In this document: in pieces, positions 2,619 to 18,500 of the stretch
Position numbering within the stretch: position 1 is the first letter of the stretch
Layout: the number at the start of each line of letters is the position of its first letter
Assembly: GCF_900604315.1 (NCBI RefSeq)
Contig: NZ_LR026978.1
Coordinates: 2,556,325-2,620,324 of the forward strand
Length of the DNA stretch: 64,000 nt
Direction of reading: 5' to 3'
From: [Erwinia] mediterraneensis
GTDB lineage: Bacteria; Pseudomonadota; Gammaproteobacteria; Enterobacterales; Enterobacteriaceae
Translations under genes and position numbers: made by a program
Notes under the pieces: generated by a model
Database searches by the model: none
Seen by the model: the letters and a program-made list of their open reading frames with translations, nothing else
Told to the model about the DNA's origin: nothing

Positions 2619-3488
2619 TTAGCGCAGGACGGCATCCTGTAGCCAGCTGCGAAACAGCGAAACCTCGGCTTCCTCGCCACGATCCTTTTTGGTCATCATC
2701 CAGGTTGTGCGATCGACGCGCACAAAGCCCAACGGGGCAATCAGCCCTCCCTCTGACAACTCCTGACGCACCAGCAACTGCGGCGCTATGGTAATACCAA
2801 GGTTATTTCGCGCCGCCTGAATAGCCAGCGCCAGATTGTCAAAGTGCTTGCCCGGCCAGAACGGACCCGACGTACCGCTCTTTTTTGCCCACTCCATCCA
2901 GGCGTTTGGCCAGGTATTGGCATGCAGCAGCGGCAGATGGGGGAGATCGCTGGCACTGCGAAAACCGCGGGCAAAATGCGGCGAGCAGACCGGCCCGATA
3001 CATTCATCGCTGATCTGTGTAGAGGCAATATCCTCGCCTGGCGGCAGCTCGGCACTTTTGATCAGCACATCGGTATGCTCGCTACGCAGCTGATCGACAT
3101 CCACGAGTCCCTGAAACTGAATGGTGATATCGGGATAGCGTTGATAAAAAGTGGCGATACGCGGGATCAACCATTGTGACAGAAAGCTGGGGGAGCAGGA
3201 GATGGTGAGGTGGTGGCGCATACCGGTACGGATGCTTTCACAGGTCGTGCGCAATTCGCTAAACGCTTTCTGACAGCTGAGCAACAGCCGTTCGCCCTGA
3301 GAGGTTAATTTCACCCGTCCGCTGGTGCGCACGAACAGCGGCGTACCCATCCAGCTTTCCAGTTGACGTACCTGATGGCTAACGGCGCTATGCGTTACGT
3401 GAAGCCGTTCTGCAGCGGTACTGAAGCTGCAATGAAGTGCGGCCTGATGGAAATAGTGTAACGCCCTCAATGAGGGAAGCCCTGTCAT
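2619..3488 (-). CDS. LysR-type transcriptional regulator (GcvA-like)
   Basis: A 289-aa DNA-binding regulator. The winged helix-turn-helix is at residues 1-65 (LRALHYFHQAALHCSFSTAA, VTHSAVSHQVRQLE) and is followed by a periplasmic-binding-protein-like effector domain (QFQGLVDVDQLRSEHTDVLI...). The overall look is of the GcvA/AmpR branch; the effector is unknown. It converges on htpG and diverges from the gene at 3680, with a 191-bp shared upstream region. That arrangement suggests it controls its neighbour, as is usual for LysR regulators. It is absent from this spot in E. coli, so it is an accessory insertion between htpG and adk. Confidence 0.9.
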   Translation of the reverse strand: MTGLPSLRALHYFHQAALHCSFSTAAERLHVTHSAVSHQVRQLESWMGTPLFVRTSGRVKLTSQGERLLLSCQKAFSELRTTCESIRTGMRHHLTISCSPSFLSQWLIPRIATFYQRYPDITIQFQGLVDVDQLRSEHTDVLIKSAELPPGEDIASTQISDECIGPVCSPHFARGFRSASDLPHLPLLHANTWPNAWMEWAKKSGTSGPFWPGKHFDNLALAIQAARNNLGITIAPQLLVRQELSEGGLIAPLGFVRVDRTTWMMTKKDRGEEAEVSLFRSWLQDAVLR

Positions 3489-3510
3489 GCTCGTCTCTCT
3501 GCGTAAAAAC

Positions 3511-3578
3511 CTAACAGGGATTGTCAGTTTATATCATTTTAAAGTCCAGCCGCATTGGCCTAACCTTGGCAGCCTAAT
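3511..3578. promoter_or_regulatory. Possible LysR operator region (CTAAY repeats)
   Basis: Three copies of CTAAC or CTAAT (3511-3515, 3560-3564, 3574-3578) lie in the divergent region between the LysR gene and the gene at 3680. GcvA-type regulators are known to bind CTAAT boxes. The match is short, so this is only a suggestion. Confidence 0.3.
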
Positions 3579-14629: not shown

Positions 14630-17143
14630 TCAGGATTTGGGCGGTCGGAAGCGCAACAGGCGATTGGCATTGCTCACCACGGTGATCGAGGAGAGCGCCA
14701 TGGCAGCACCGGCCAGCACCGGGCTGAGCAGCGTGCCGGTAAAGGGATAGAGCACGCCCGCCGCCACCGGAATGCCCAGACTGTTGTAAACAAAGGCCCC
14801 GAGTAAGTTCTGTTTCATATTGCGCAGCGTTGCGCGCGAGATGGCCAGCGCATCCGCAACGGCATGCAGATCGTGGCGCATCAGCGTCATGGCTGCGGTT
14901 TCAATCGCCACATCGCTGCCGCTGCCCATGGCGATGCCCACGTCCGCCTGAGCCAGCGCAGGGGCATCGTTAATGCCATCGCCGATCATCGCCACCTGCG
15001 CACCTTGTTGCTGCAGCTGGCGTATCGCTTCCGCTTTCCCTTCCGGCAGGACGCCCGCCATCACCTCATCAATACCCGCTTCCTGCGCGATTACCTGCGC
15101 CGTCTGCGCATTATCGCCGGTCAGCATGATCAGACGATAACCTGAGCGGTGCAGACGCTGCAGGGCGTCACGACTCTCCTGACGTAGCGCATCGCGCAGG
15201 GCGAACAGGGCAACCAACTGGTTGTCGACGGCCAGCATCACCGGCGTCGCGCCTTGTGCCGTGAGGGCGGTAAGCGCCTGCGTAGCGGGACTGCAATCAA
15301 TGTTTTGCTGCAGCAGCAGGGCTGGGTTACCCAGCAGCAGCGACTTGCCTGCCAGTGTACCGCTGACGCCCTGGCCGCGTATTGTACGAAATTGCTCAAC
15401 CGCAGGCAGGGTTGCGCCCTCAGCCGCCGCCACCAGCGCTTTCGCCAGCGGGTGGCTGGAATCCTGCTCAAGGGCTGCCGCCAGGCGCACAACCCCGGCG
15501 CGTTCAGCGGCGTTAAAGGTCTGAATATCAACGACGCGCGGCTGGCCTTCCGTCAGCGTGCCGGTTTTATCAAACACCAGCGTATTCAGCGTGCTGGCGC
15601 GCTGCAACGCGTCGGCGTCGCGCACCAGTACGCCCAGCTCGGCGGCGCGCCCGACACCAGCGATAATCGACATCGGCGTTGCCAGCCCCAGTGCGCAGGG
15701 GCAGGCGATAATCAGCACCGTGGTGGCAATCACCAGCGTATAGACAATTTGCGGCTGCGGCCCCACCAGATACCAGATCAGGGCGCTGATCAGCGCAATG
15801 GCGACCACCGCCGGGACAAAAACCGCAGAGATGCGATCCGCCAGCCGGCCAATTTCCGGCTTGCTGCTTTGCGCCTGACGCACCAGCTGGATAATGCGCG
15901 CCAGGGTAGTGTGTTGACCGATGGCGCGGGCTGTAAAGCGCACTGCGCCATCCTGCACCAGAGTTCCGGCGTGGATGCTGGCGCCACGGCTTTTTGCCTG
16001 CGGCACCGGCTCGCCGGTGAGCATCGCCTCATCGAACCAGGCTTCGCCGTCAGTGATCTCGCCATCCACGGGGACGCGATCGCCGGTGACCAGACGCAGC
16101 GTCATGCCAGGCTGCAGCTCGCTCAGCGGCACCTTTTTCTCGCCCTGATCGGTGATCACCCGCGCCTGGGTCGGCGTCAGATCCAGCAGGCGCTCCAGTG
16201 CCTGTGATGAACGCTGACGCGCGCGCTGTTCCAGCGCATGGCCGAGATTAATCAGGCCGATAATCATGACGCTGGCTTCAAAATAGAGGTGGCGTGCCTG
16301 ATGGGGGAAAAAGTCGGGCCAGATCGCCACACTGATGGAGTAGAGCCAGGCGGCGCCAGTGCCCAGCGCCACCAGCGTATCCATGGTCGCCGTGCCCTTG
16401 CGCAGGCTACGCCAGGCGCTGCGCCAGAAATGACCGCCCGCCACCAGCATCACCAGCAGCGTAATGCCGCCCAGCCATAGCCAGGTCGTACGGTTCGCGG
16501 CGCTGAGCATCATATTGTCGCCCCACATGCCCCAGAACATCATCGGCACGCCCAGCAGCAGGGCCAGCGCCGCCTGCCAGCTGAAGCGGCGCATTGCCTG
16601 ACGCGCGCTCTGCTGCTGTTTCTGCCGCCGTTCGCCTTCATCGGCAACAAACTGCGCGCCGTAACCCGCCTCTTCGACGGCGGCGACCAGGGTCTGAGGA
16701 TCGGCGCTGCCCAGTACCAGGGCGCTGCGCTCGCCCAGGTTAACGCGCGCCTGGCTGACGCCAGCTACCTGCTGTAAGGCACGTTCCACGCGACTCACGC
16801 AACTGGCGCAGCTCATGCCGTCAATCAGCAGGTGGAGCGCGTCAGCGCGCTCCGGTGCCGGAAGCTGTTGAGACGCCGCTGTCAGCGCTTCCGGCTGTGG
16901 TTCTGTTGCTGTCAGCGGTTCAGGCTTTGGGTGTGCGTCGTCCTGTTTCAGGGTCGCGTGATAGCCCACCTGCTCAACAGTGGCGATCAGCGCCTGCGCT
17001 TCGGCCTGACCTGCAATGCGTGCCTCTTCCAGCGTAACTTCCGCCTGTTCAACGTCGCTGCGCTGTTCCAGCGCTTCTTTGACGCGTTTAATGCAGTGAC
17101 CGCAGGAGAGACCATCCAGGGCCAGTACGGTTGTTTGTGACAT
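14630..17143 (-). CDS. copA: Cu(+)-exporting P1B-type ATPase (also encodes short chaperone CopA(Z))
   Basis: Inner-membrane pump that drives Cu+ from cytoplasm to periplasm. The 837-aa product has two N-terminal heavy-metal domains with CxxC pairs (C14/C17 in GLSCGHC, C112/C115 in GMSCASC). It has eight helices including the CPC transport motif ([14 protein letters not shown]), the TGEP actuator loop, the phosphorylated DKTGT, and the HP motif ([10 protein letters not shown]). The start at 17143 ([11 protein letters not shown]) has AAGGAG upstream; the in-frame extension covers the promoter. A CueR-type promoter lies upstream and cueR is nearby. A slippery heptamer after the first metal domain predicts a second product. 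Confidence 0.97.
16857..16931 (-). promoter_or_regulatory. Programmed -1 frameshift site and downstream stem in copA
   Basis: On the copA mRNA the heptamer C-CCA-AAG (complement 16925-16931) covers codons 72-73. After a -1 slip the ribosome reads GCC and then TGA (complement 16920-16922), giving a 74-aa product that holds only the first metal-binding domain. A 9-bp stem follows 29 nt downstream (16887-16895 with 16857-16865, 21-nt loop). E. coli copA is known to use the same heptamer to make the copper chaperone CopA(Z). Confidence 0.8.
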
Positions 17144-17199
17144 CGTTGACTCCTTAAAAAGAGCGGGGCAGCCCCGCAAGGAAAGGTGATACGTGACAA

Positions 17200-17230
17200 A
17201 GTTTAAACCTTCCATCAAGGGGAAGGTCAA
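17200..17230 (-). promoter_or_regulatory. CueR-controlled copA promoter
   Basis: On the minus strand TTGACC (-35, 17225-17230) and TAAACT (-10, 17200-17205) are 19 bp apart, the over-long spacer typical of MerR-family promoters. The 21-bp dyad ACCTTCC-N7-GGAAGGT (17207-17227) fills the spacer and matches the CueR operator of E. coli copA. Confidence 0.93.
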
Positions 17231-17300
17231 TAAAGCGCAGGAGATAAATAGCTATGCAGGGGCAGACTGCGGGTTGTGTAGAGTAAGGAAGGGCCAGGAT

Positions 17301-17332: not shown

Positions 17333-17752
17333 TTAGTAGAGATATTCTTCGGCAGACTCTTTTTCGGCTTTTTTTGCCTGTATTTCTGCCAGGGAGCTGC
17401 AATGGGATGGCAGGCTGCTTACCCCATTTTCCCGGCTGCGAGGGTTTTGAACATTCCTGATAATAACTTCAAGCAGCTTTTTACCATTATTTATCCTTGC
17501 TGATTTATTTTTATTATGCGTGTGCGGGTTTGCATTAATAATTTCTGTATATTGATTTGCTTTGGCTAATAATGTGTTTGCGTCGCTGATGATTTCACTT
17601 CGGGACTGCTGCCAGCCGGCCCGATAGCTTTTGTTGCTTACATTAATCACTTCTTTTAAAAGGCTTTTTATTGCTTTGTTTTTGATATGGACATTTTCAT
17701 CTGCGTGGGCGTGTTGACACCTGGCCCAGTATATGATTTTTGCAATTTGCAT
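17333..17752 (-). CDS. AT-rich orphan protein of unknown function
   Basis: A 139-aa hydrophilic protein that I do not recognise. It has no signal peptide or membrane helix, is rich in Asn, Lys and Ser, and ends in an Ala/Lys/Glu-rich helix (IQAKKAEKESAEEYLY). Codons are much more A/T-rich than those of the flanking host genes, and the following 340 bp are also AT-rich, which points to horizontal acquisition. The gene sits between copA and cueR, a pair that is closer together in some relatives. A perfect terminator directly behind it supports expression. The start at 17752 (MQIAKIIYW) is the first available. Confidence 0.65.
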   Translation of the reverse strand: MQIAKIIYWARCQHAHADENVHIKNKAIKSLLKEVINVSNKSYRAGWQQSRSEIISDANTLLAKANQYTEIINANPHTHNKNKSARINNGKKLLEVIIRNVQNPRSRENGVSSLPSHCSSLAEIQAKKAEKESAEEYLY

Positions 17753-18092
17753 CGCATGGTCCTCTGTGTAATAACCGGGCTTGAAATTGTACGCTAATCA
17801 AAGAGAAATAATTCTATAAAGCACTCATCTGTTTTTTAATAATTTGTTTTCTGGTTTGGAAAGTCTCTTTGTTAAATCTTTATTTGTATGTAAAACTATT
17901 TTTAATAAAAAGAAGTGTTTTTAGTAATGTGATATAGCGGCCTGACAGCCTGTCGCTTCCATCTTAAACTTCTCGCCTGCACATTTTAAAAATTATCGTT
18001 GCCAGTGACCGGCGAATCAGCACACTATCAGAGCGATAGCATCCGCCTGAACAGGCCGGTGATACAATCTTCCGGGGAAAGAGGAGAGCATG
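17753..18092. other. AT-rich intergenic region before cueR
   Basis: A 340-bp stretch that separates the orphan gene from cueR and must hold the divergent promoters of both. It is markedly AT-rich from about 17780 to 17940. No further gene or clear operator was recognised. Confidence 0.5.
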
Positions 18093-18500
18093 ATGAATAT
18101 CAGTGATGTTGCCAGCAAAACCGGCTTAACCCGTAAAGCGATCCGCTTTTATGAGGAGAAAGGGGTAGTGACGCCGCCGCTGCGCAGCGAAAACGGCTAC
18201 CGCAGCTACAGCGCACGTCATCTGGAGGAGCTCACGCTGTTGCGCCAGGCGCGTCAGGTGGGTTTTAATCTGGAAGAGTGCCGCGAACTGGTGCAGCTGT
18301 TTAATAATCCAGCGCGCCACAGCGCGGAAGTGAAAGCACGTACGCTGCAAAAAGCGGACGAGATTGCGGCGCATATTGAACAGCTGCAGGTCATGCATGC
18401 ACGACTGTTACAACTCGCGGCCGCCTGTCCGGGAGATGAAAGCGCGGACTGCCCGATTATCAACCATCTGGCGGGCTGCTGCGGCCATCACTCTGAGTGA
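18093..18500 (+). CDS. cueR: Cu(+)-responsive MerR-family activator CueR
   Basis: Cytosolic Cu+ sensor that twists the 19-bp-spaced promoters of copA and cueO into active form. The 135-aa product matches E. coli CueR along its whole length: MERR helix-turn-helix ([22 protein letters not shown]), [14 protein letters not shown], a long dimerisation helix, and the metal-binding loop with C112 and C120 ([10 protein letters not shown]). The C-terminal CC pair is also present. ATG 18093 has GAGGAG 6 nt upstream and gives the usual MNISDVA start; the ATG at 18090 is less well placed. The matching operator lies before copA. Confidence 0.96.

Follow-up and report, generated by a model that had tools for sequence, protein, structure and literature searches.

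The window, by which is meant the whole stretch of 64,000 nucleotides that was analysed, carries copA, a gene for a copper-exporting ATPase, together with a divergent regulatory gene of the MerR family whose CueR-like name is inferred (Table 1). An inverted repeat upstream of copA presumably resembles a CueR operator. Between copA and the cueR-like gene lies an open frame of 139 aa (17333-17752, minus strand) with a G+C content of 40.5% versus 55.5% for the window. The sole Pfam match of this frame, to SNaCT5 (a NACHT-associated C-terminal domain), scores 18.2 bits and is below the cut-off of 27.

Table 1 Features of the copA locus and the basis on which each was placed.
Feature	Position in window	Strand	Basis
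copA, 837-aa copper-exporting P1B ATPase with two HMA domains	14630..17143	-	Translation; Pfam HMA (2 stretches), E1-E2 ATPase, Hydrolase
Slippery heptamer C CCA AAG, codons P72-K73	16925..16931	-	Recomputed from window sequence
-1 frame stop TGA, end of predicted 74-aa slip product	16920..16922	-	Recomputed; adjoins slip site
6-nt spacer CCTGAA, heptamer to stem 1 (includes -1 TGA)	16919..16924	-	Recomputed
Pseudoknot stem 1, 5' arm CCGCTG	16913..16918	-	Pairing with CAGCGG
Pseudoknot stem 1, 3' arm CAGCGG	16876..16881	-	Pairing; CCGTTG/CAACGG as a compensatory pair set in 56 loci
Pseudoknot stem 2, 5' arm GCCGGAAGC (stem of the first-pass annotation)	16887..16895	-	Folding and pairing
Pseudoknot stem 2, 3' arm GCTTCCGGC	16857..16865	-	Folding and pairing
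Coding sequence, from ATG to -1 TGA, of the predicted chaperone of 74 aa resembling CopA(Z)	16920..17143	-	Computed slip product
Inverted repeat ACCTTCC...GGAAGG upstream of copA	17208..17227	-	Sequence
Putative CueR-like regulator of the MerR family, transcribed divergently from copA	18090..18500	+	Pfam MerR_1, MerR-DNA-bind

The first-pass annotation had proposed a programmed frameshift within copA, and recomputation from the start codon (ATG at 17143, minus strand) reproduced its anatomy. The heptamer CCCAAAG falls in the right phase at codons 72-73, the TGA is met early in the -1 frame, and the product of a slip would be 74 aa long with the C-terminus HPKA, matching the Pro-Lys-Ala ending that had been given. 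This product comprises one complete HMA domain (PF00403, E = 1.6e-10, residues 7-62). A 9-bp stem that had been described 29 nt past the heptamer was recovered as stem 2, and the pseudoknot partner that had been suspected in the interval is present, as CCGCTG, 6 nt past the heptamer, pairs with CAGCGG; the 29-nt distance is thus explained by a first stem that starts much closer to the slip site. The order of parts is heptamer, 6 nt, stem 1 arm, 17-nt loop, stem 2 arm, 5 nt, stem 1 arm, 10 nt and stem 2 arm. Because the arms of the two stems cross, the element would form an H-type pseudoknot, and from heptamer to distal stem it occupies exactly the span originally flagged, 16857-16931. CCCAAA[A/G] occurs ten times in the window on both strands, and at the copA site only is it followed by an immediate -1 stop. 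No Rfam family matched the stretch 16700-17250, even with E values of up to 1 allowed.

These observations point, with very high confidence, to a two-product gene that gives the full pump and, by a -1 slip at the heptamer with the aid of the pseudoknot, a CopA(Z) protein. Ribosomes that stay in frame would make the 837-aa copper-exporting ATPase. Some ribosomes would slip back by one base on C CCA AAG, aided by the H-type pseudoknot 6 nt downstream, add one alanine and terminate at the TGA, leaving a 74-aa HMA protein that should carry Cu(I) in the cytosol. For this species we infer the slipping, its efficiency and the chaperone role from the E. coli system.

Conservation was followed in 257 gathered loci and the window, oriented and scanned as 258 entries. 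An in-frame CCCAAA[G/A] was present in 212 of them and lacking in 46. Leaving out L168, whose frame is broken by a stop before the second domain, and collapsing duplicates gave 190 distinct loci, and 189 once a Vibrio locus with CCCAAAG ahead of the domains (L051) was set aside. As the 189 were chosen for having the heptamer, its frequency has to be judged from the 46. The word is CCCAAAG in 137 of the 189 and CCCAAAA in 52, and the -1 stop is found at the same codon in 188. The exception, L240 (G193), retains the heptamer and has lost the early -1 stop; its -1 product would continue until a stop that lies 20 codons from the heptamer. In 184 of the 189 loci, stem 1 consists of Watson-Crick pairs throughout and starts exactly 6 nt past the heptamer; the remaining five have five of six Watson-Crick pairs, the sixth being a wobble by reading of the letters. 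Five pair sets occur in all: CCGCTG/CAGCGG in 125 loci, CCGTTG/CAACGG in 56, and CCGCCG/CGGCGG, CCACTG/CAGTGG and CCGCAG/CTGCGG in one each. Within the genus of the window, a search found copA in 59 of 61 genomes, and every one of the 59 loci fetched, including the broken gene of L168, has the in-frame CCCAAAG and the same -1 stop. The alignment that the first-pass annotation had proposed, with loss of heptamer or stop in close relatives as the case against it, therefore speaks for the element.

The element was compared with chance by drawing synonymous codons from the usage of each gene. On average over the 189 loci, 7.8% of such draws contained the heptamer in phase, 16.7% the -1 stop and 3.3% a fully paired stem 1; for the copA of the window alone the values were 7.7%, 13.4% and 3.0%. 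Covariation was examined in 145 distinct sequences picked for stem 1 pairing in a fixed register, so that their 100% paired stem 1 is by construction; in three of its six pairs, changes on both sides were seen. Stem 2, which had no part in this choice, is 82% paired compared with 20-42% in registers slid by 1-3, and it is shorter in many Pantoea, often GCCGG/CCGGC. Nested thermodynamic folding of the 77-nt element was discarded as a test, as stem 1 cannot appear in it and the fold is weakly better than that of shuffles (z = -1.73, with 13 of 200 shuffles folding as well), and was replaced by pairing counts and synonymous constraint. Judged by sequence comparison, it is conservation and not nested folding that is decisive for the element being more than chance.

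For synonymous constraint, 185 loci supplied 72 separate sequence pairs, which were compared across codons -70 to +330 relative to P72, with the expectation taken from the same stretch. The lowest nine-codon window had 18 synonymous changes versus 167 expected, and the 25 lowest of all such windows start at codons -7 to +17 relative to P72. H71, P72, P74 and P76 had no synonymous change at all, with 16-20 expected at each. From codon +24 or +25, right past stem 2, the ratio of observed to expected returns to 0.9-1.0, and within the codons analysed the constraint is confined to the element. The stretch with suppressed synonymous change thus begins at codon 71 and ends near codon 96, which marks the extent of the selected RNA element and agrees with its anatomy. 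Anatomy, conservation, stem covariation and synonymous constraint are all observed properties of the site, and the constraint speaks for selection on the nucleotides beyond the protein. Just past the pseudoknot lies a strong, G+C-rich hairpin, GGAGCGCG-CUGA-CGCGCUCC (16834-16853, minus strand). It is probably not part of the element, since synonymous change there is near normal.

The range of the device is bounded by the 46 entries without in-frame CCCAAA[G/A], of which 31 lie outside the family by name and 15 are others. None of the 32 loci outside the family by name (L048, L050-L072, L074-L081) has CCCAAA[G/A] at this junction. The heptamer has been lost from fused copA genes in Chimaeribacter californicus (L049 and L236, same species) and in L248. 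The 46 also include L250 with an exchanged slippery word (below), split frames (L244-L246), a pump frame without the first domain (L247), loci with the chaperone only (L251, L252, L254, L255, L257) and a different two-domain ATPase (L253, L256). A further 31 loci (L324-L327, L333-L356, L360-L362) comprise 27 with CCCAAAA and the stop at the same place, eight of which have stem 1 as an exact complement, the sole form tested; the rest are L333, a fused frame without the heptamer, and three loci without a fused frame. As a few relatives have copA without the heptamer or without the early stop, the frameshift device is not indispensable. Elsewhere the slippery word itself has been exchanged. L250 (G207) carries A AAA AAA with a TGA and the stem 1 CCACTG/CAGTGG, and A AAA AAG with a -1 TGA occurs at the same place in L050 (named as uncultured Plesiomonas) and L308 (G457, from another family of the order). 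These three loci suggest that slippery words switch and the design persists, and the sites in L308 and L050 may mean that the frameshift predates the family and that its slippery word was switched. In a thin sampling of the other families of the order (12 loci scanned, L308-L319), a heptamer was present in L308 only; L311 and L316 have a matching domain and no heptamer, and nine gave no readable frame in the scan. Finally, a regular expression found more than one metal-binding motif ahead of the heptamer in 34 of the 189 loci (two in 29, three in 5), in which the slip product should thus be multi-domain.

Two other explanations of the window's element can be weighed against these data. An RNA structure selected for mRNA stability or for pausing between the metal-binding domains, with frameshifting as an incidental effect, is very improbable: conservation alone is silent on what a structure does, but heptamer phase, 6-nt distance and adjacent -1 stop are conserved jointly, the -1 stop is retained where the slippery word has switched to A AAA AAA (L250) or A AAA AAG (L308, L050), and slipping at the E. 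coli site is described as well supported in PMC9548414. Even less credible is that heptamer and early stop are a by-product of a conserved protein linker (Pro-Lys ... Pro-Leu) without any slipping, as the linker residues are themselves rather conserved but the synonymous positions at H71, P72, P74 and P76 are frozen, only the small share of synonymous draws given above retains the heptamer, and the stem arms vary in matched pairs.

Programmed slipping to a chaperone is therefore kept as the reading for the window, and in some relatives the same signal appears with its polarity inverted. Among 392 genomes of the family, 11 matched a pattern with a 5-nt spacer, at 12 places in total; as a backwards control pattern gave 6 matches, most of these places are chance. 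Four of them are copA (G064, G167, G164, G175), and the letters matched elsewhere are unlike copA. A genus search added G464, and in genus g116 two of six species have the split form and four the usual one (paired comparison of L244-L246 and L328-L331 versus L324-L327). In the split genes the 0 frame through C CCA AAA soon ends, giving a 76-aa chaperone (G064, G167, G175, G464), and the pump frame lies in -1, with 779 codons in G175, 794 in G167, 795 in G064 and 601 seen in G464. Both parts are degenerate in G164, where a stop closes the -1 frame after 62 codons. All five genes have an intact stem 1. The pump part has a dN/dS of 0.15 (G064/G167) and 0.086 (G175/G464), low values which argue that the out-of-frame pump is maintained by selection. 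An assembly error behind the split frames is unlikely, given the 5-nt spacer in G064, G167 and G164 (three genera) and in two of six species of a fourth genus. In a protein tree of 41 rows, G064 and G167 (100/100) stand apart from G175 and G464, which are nested among usual congeners (100/100). This nesting points to two origins of the inversion; a label test on the tree (eight rows counted) taken alone leaves one origin possible.

The simplest reading of the split relatives is that the same signal would now give the full-length pump by slipping. For these relatives only, it is also conceivable, if rather unlikely, that the gene underwent fission, that the pump starts inside the linker by ordinary initiation and that the heptamer is a relic. 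Some start-like codon lies downstream of the heptamer in every pump frame, making a shorter pump possible, and G175 and G464 have in-frame ATG codons before or at the second domain, the first of them 34 codons past the heptamer. However, the first ATG of G064 and G167 lies inside the second metal-binding motif, and, of the other common start codons, G064 has just a GTG at codon 11 and G167 just a TTG at codon 35. On the upstream side of the heptamer, the pump frame extends without a stop over just 2 codons in G175 and G464 (Ile-Ile) and 4 in G167 (Gly-Asp-Arg-Cys), which counts against the fission reading there, and over 32 in G064. The in-phase heptamer and stem 1 are, moreover, retained in all split genes. 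Production of the pump by slipping thus stays the preferred reading.

In other relatives the pump is missing from the copA locus. A small HMA chaperone gene with no pump in the 6-7.5 kb fetched was found in 11 genomes of three genera (G076 and G221; G084, G228, G311, G377 and G433; G229, G481, G482 and G483), in the gene order cueR, small HMA gene, TraB/GumN gene and YbaK-like gene that matches the order in the window. The proteins are 66-67 aa long in the seven with the start resolved. One genus has such a locus in five of its six genomes, another in four of 30 and the third in both genomes sampled, and a fused copA with the heptamer is kept in one further member of the first genus and in 22 of the second. 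For the five genomes in which the whole protein was used as query (G076, G221, G084, G228, G229), the best ATPase match lies elsewhere in the genome and has 44-45% identity. The chaperone part can thus persist here after loss of the pump, which speaks for an independent function. In the 1.9-Mb genome G487 (genus g26), locus L395 holds a first-domain part of copA beside cueR (3404-3577, minus strand), with no pump in the 7 kb fetched; this piece is either a chaperone remnant or a decaying gene. No report of an inverted or chaperone-only copA was found in the literature searched, which is weak evidence as the search covered largely titles and abstract openings and few subscription journals, and, with the same coverage of journals, no paper was found on a copA frameshift with a chaperone in Sodalis or on frameshifting with CopZ in Serratia.

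Together, these relatives give moderate support to the view that the recoding signal has been inverted at least twice, with the 5-nt spacer making a 76-aa chaperone the default and leaving an intact, selected pump accessible via the -1 slip only, and that elsewhere the pump has been lost from the locus. Perhaps, the frameshift is then a reversible setting of the chaperone-to-pump ratio. In the window, a diverged copA of the Pantoea type retains the E. coli recoding signal, which is here worked out to the base pair, with covariation and a sharply bounded synonymous constraint. The chaperone would be missed by gene finders restricted to the long frame, and in the E. coli record viewed, the RefSeq annotation has copA alone there. 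Relatives with a switched heptamer, with inverted polarity (two lineages), with a predicted slip product of several domains or with the chaperone alone at the locus can be set side by side as a natural series, which bears on the question of why a chaperone is made by frameshifting rather than from a separate gene.

The kind of element described here is already known. A -1 programmed ribosomal frameshift in E. coli copA, giving CopA(Z), was reportedly described in 2017 by both Meydan et al. and Drees et al., and the former are said to have noted similar elements in other bacteria. In dnaX of E. coli, too, a -1 slip ends translation early and gives a shorter N-terminal product, as predicted for copA; dnaX uses A AAA AAG, an upstream Shine-Dalgarno-like site and a hairpin, whereas the copA element uses C CCA AAG and a pseudoknot. 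Like the predicted product, a stand-alone CopZ is a small HMA chaperone of one domain that accompanies a copper-exporting ATPase; it differs in having a separate gene instead of arising by a slip, as in the window's copA. Tandem copZ genes of this sort are described for Haemophilus influenzae in PMC10187127.

The closest counterpart is E. coli copA itself, which the first-pass annotation had rightly named as the model, since gene, heptamer and stem 1 are the same. The copA stretch of the window is matched at 60-80% DNA identity in 5371 of 5426 E. coli genomes. In E. coli BE2-5, copA has CCCAAAG at P68-K69, the same stem 1 and a computed 70-aa -1 product ending in PKG, which agrees in size with the 70-aa frameshift product reported for E. 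coli copA in PMC5009743. The slippery sequence, a pseudoknot and the CopA nascent chain are listed as stimulators in PMC7558416, and PMC9548414 regards the E. coli copA case as well supported and independently confirmed and rejects the claim for human ATP7B. Based on this comparison of sequences, the element in the window is the published E. coli CopA(Z) frameshift in another copA. Common to both are the heptamer C CCA AAG, a -1 stop two codons past the slip, stem 1 CCGCTG/CAGCGG at 6 nt and a one-domain product. The copA of the window differs in four additional linker codons before the site, a product of 74 aa instead of 70 aa, Ala instead of Gly as the last residue and TGA instead of TAA as the stop, and its slipping is predicted from sequence.
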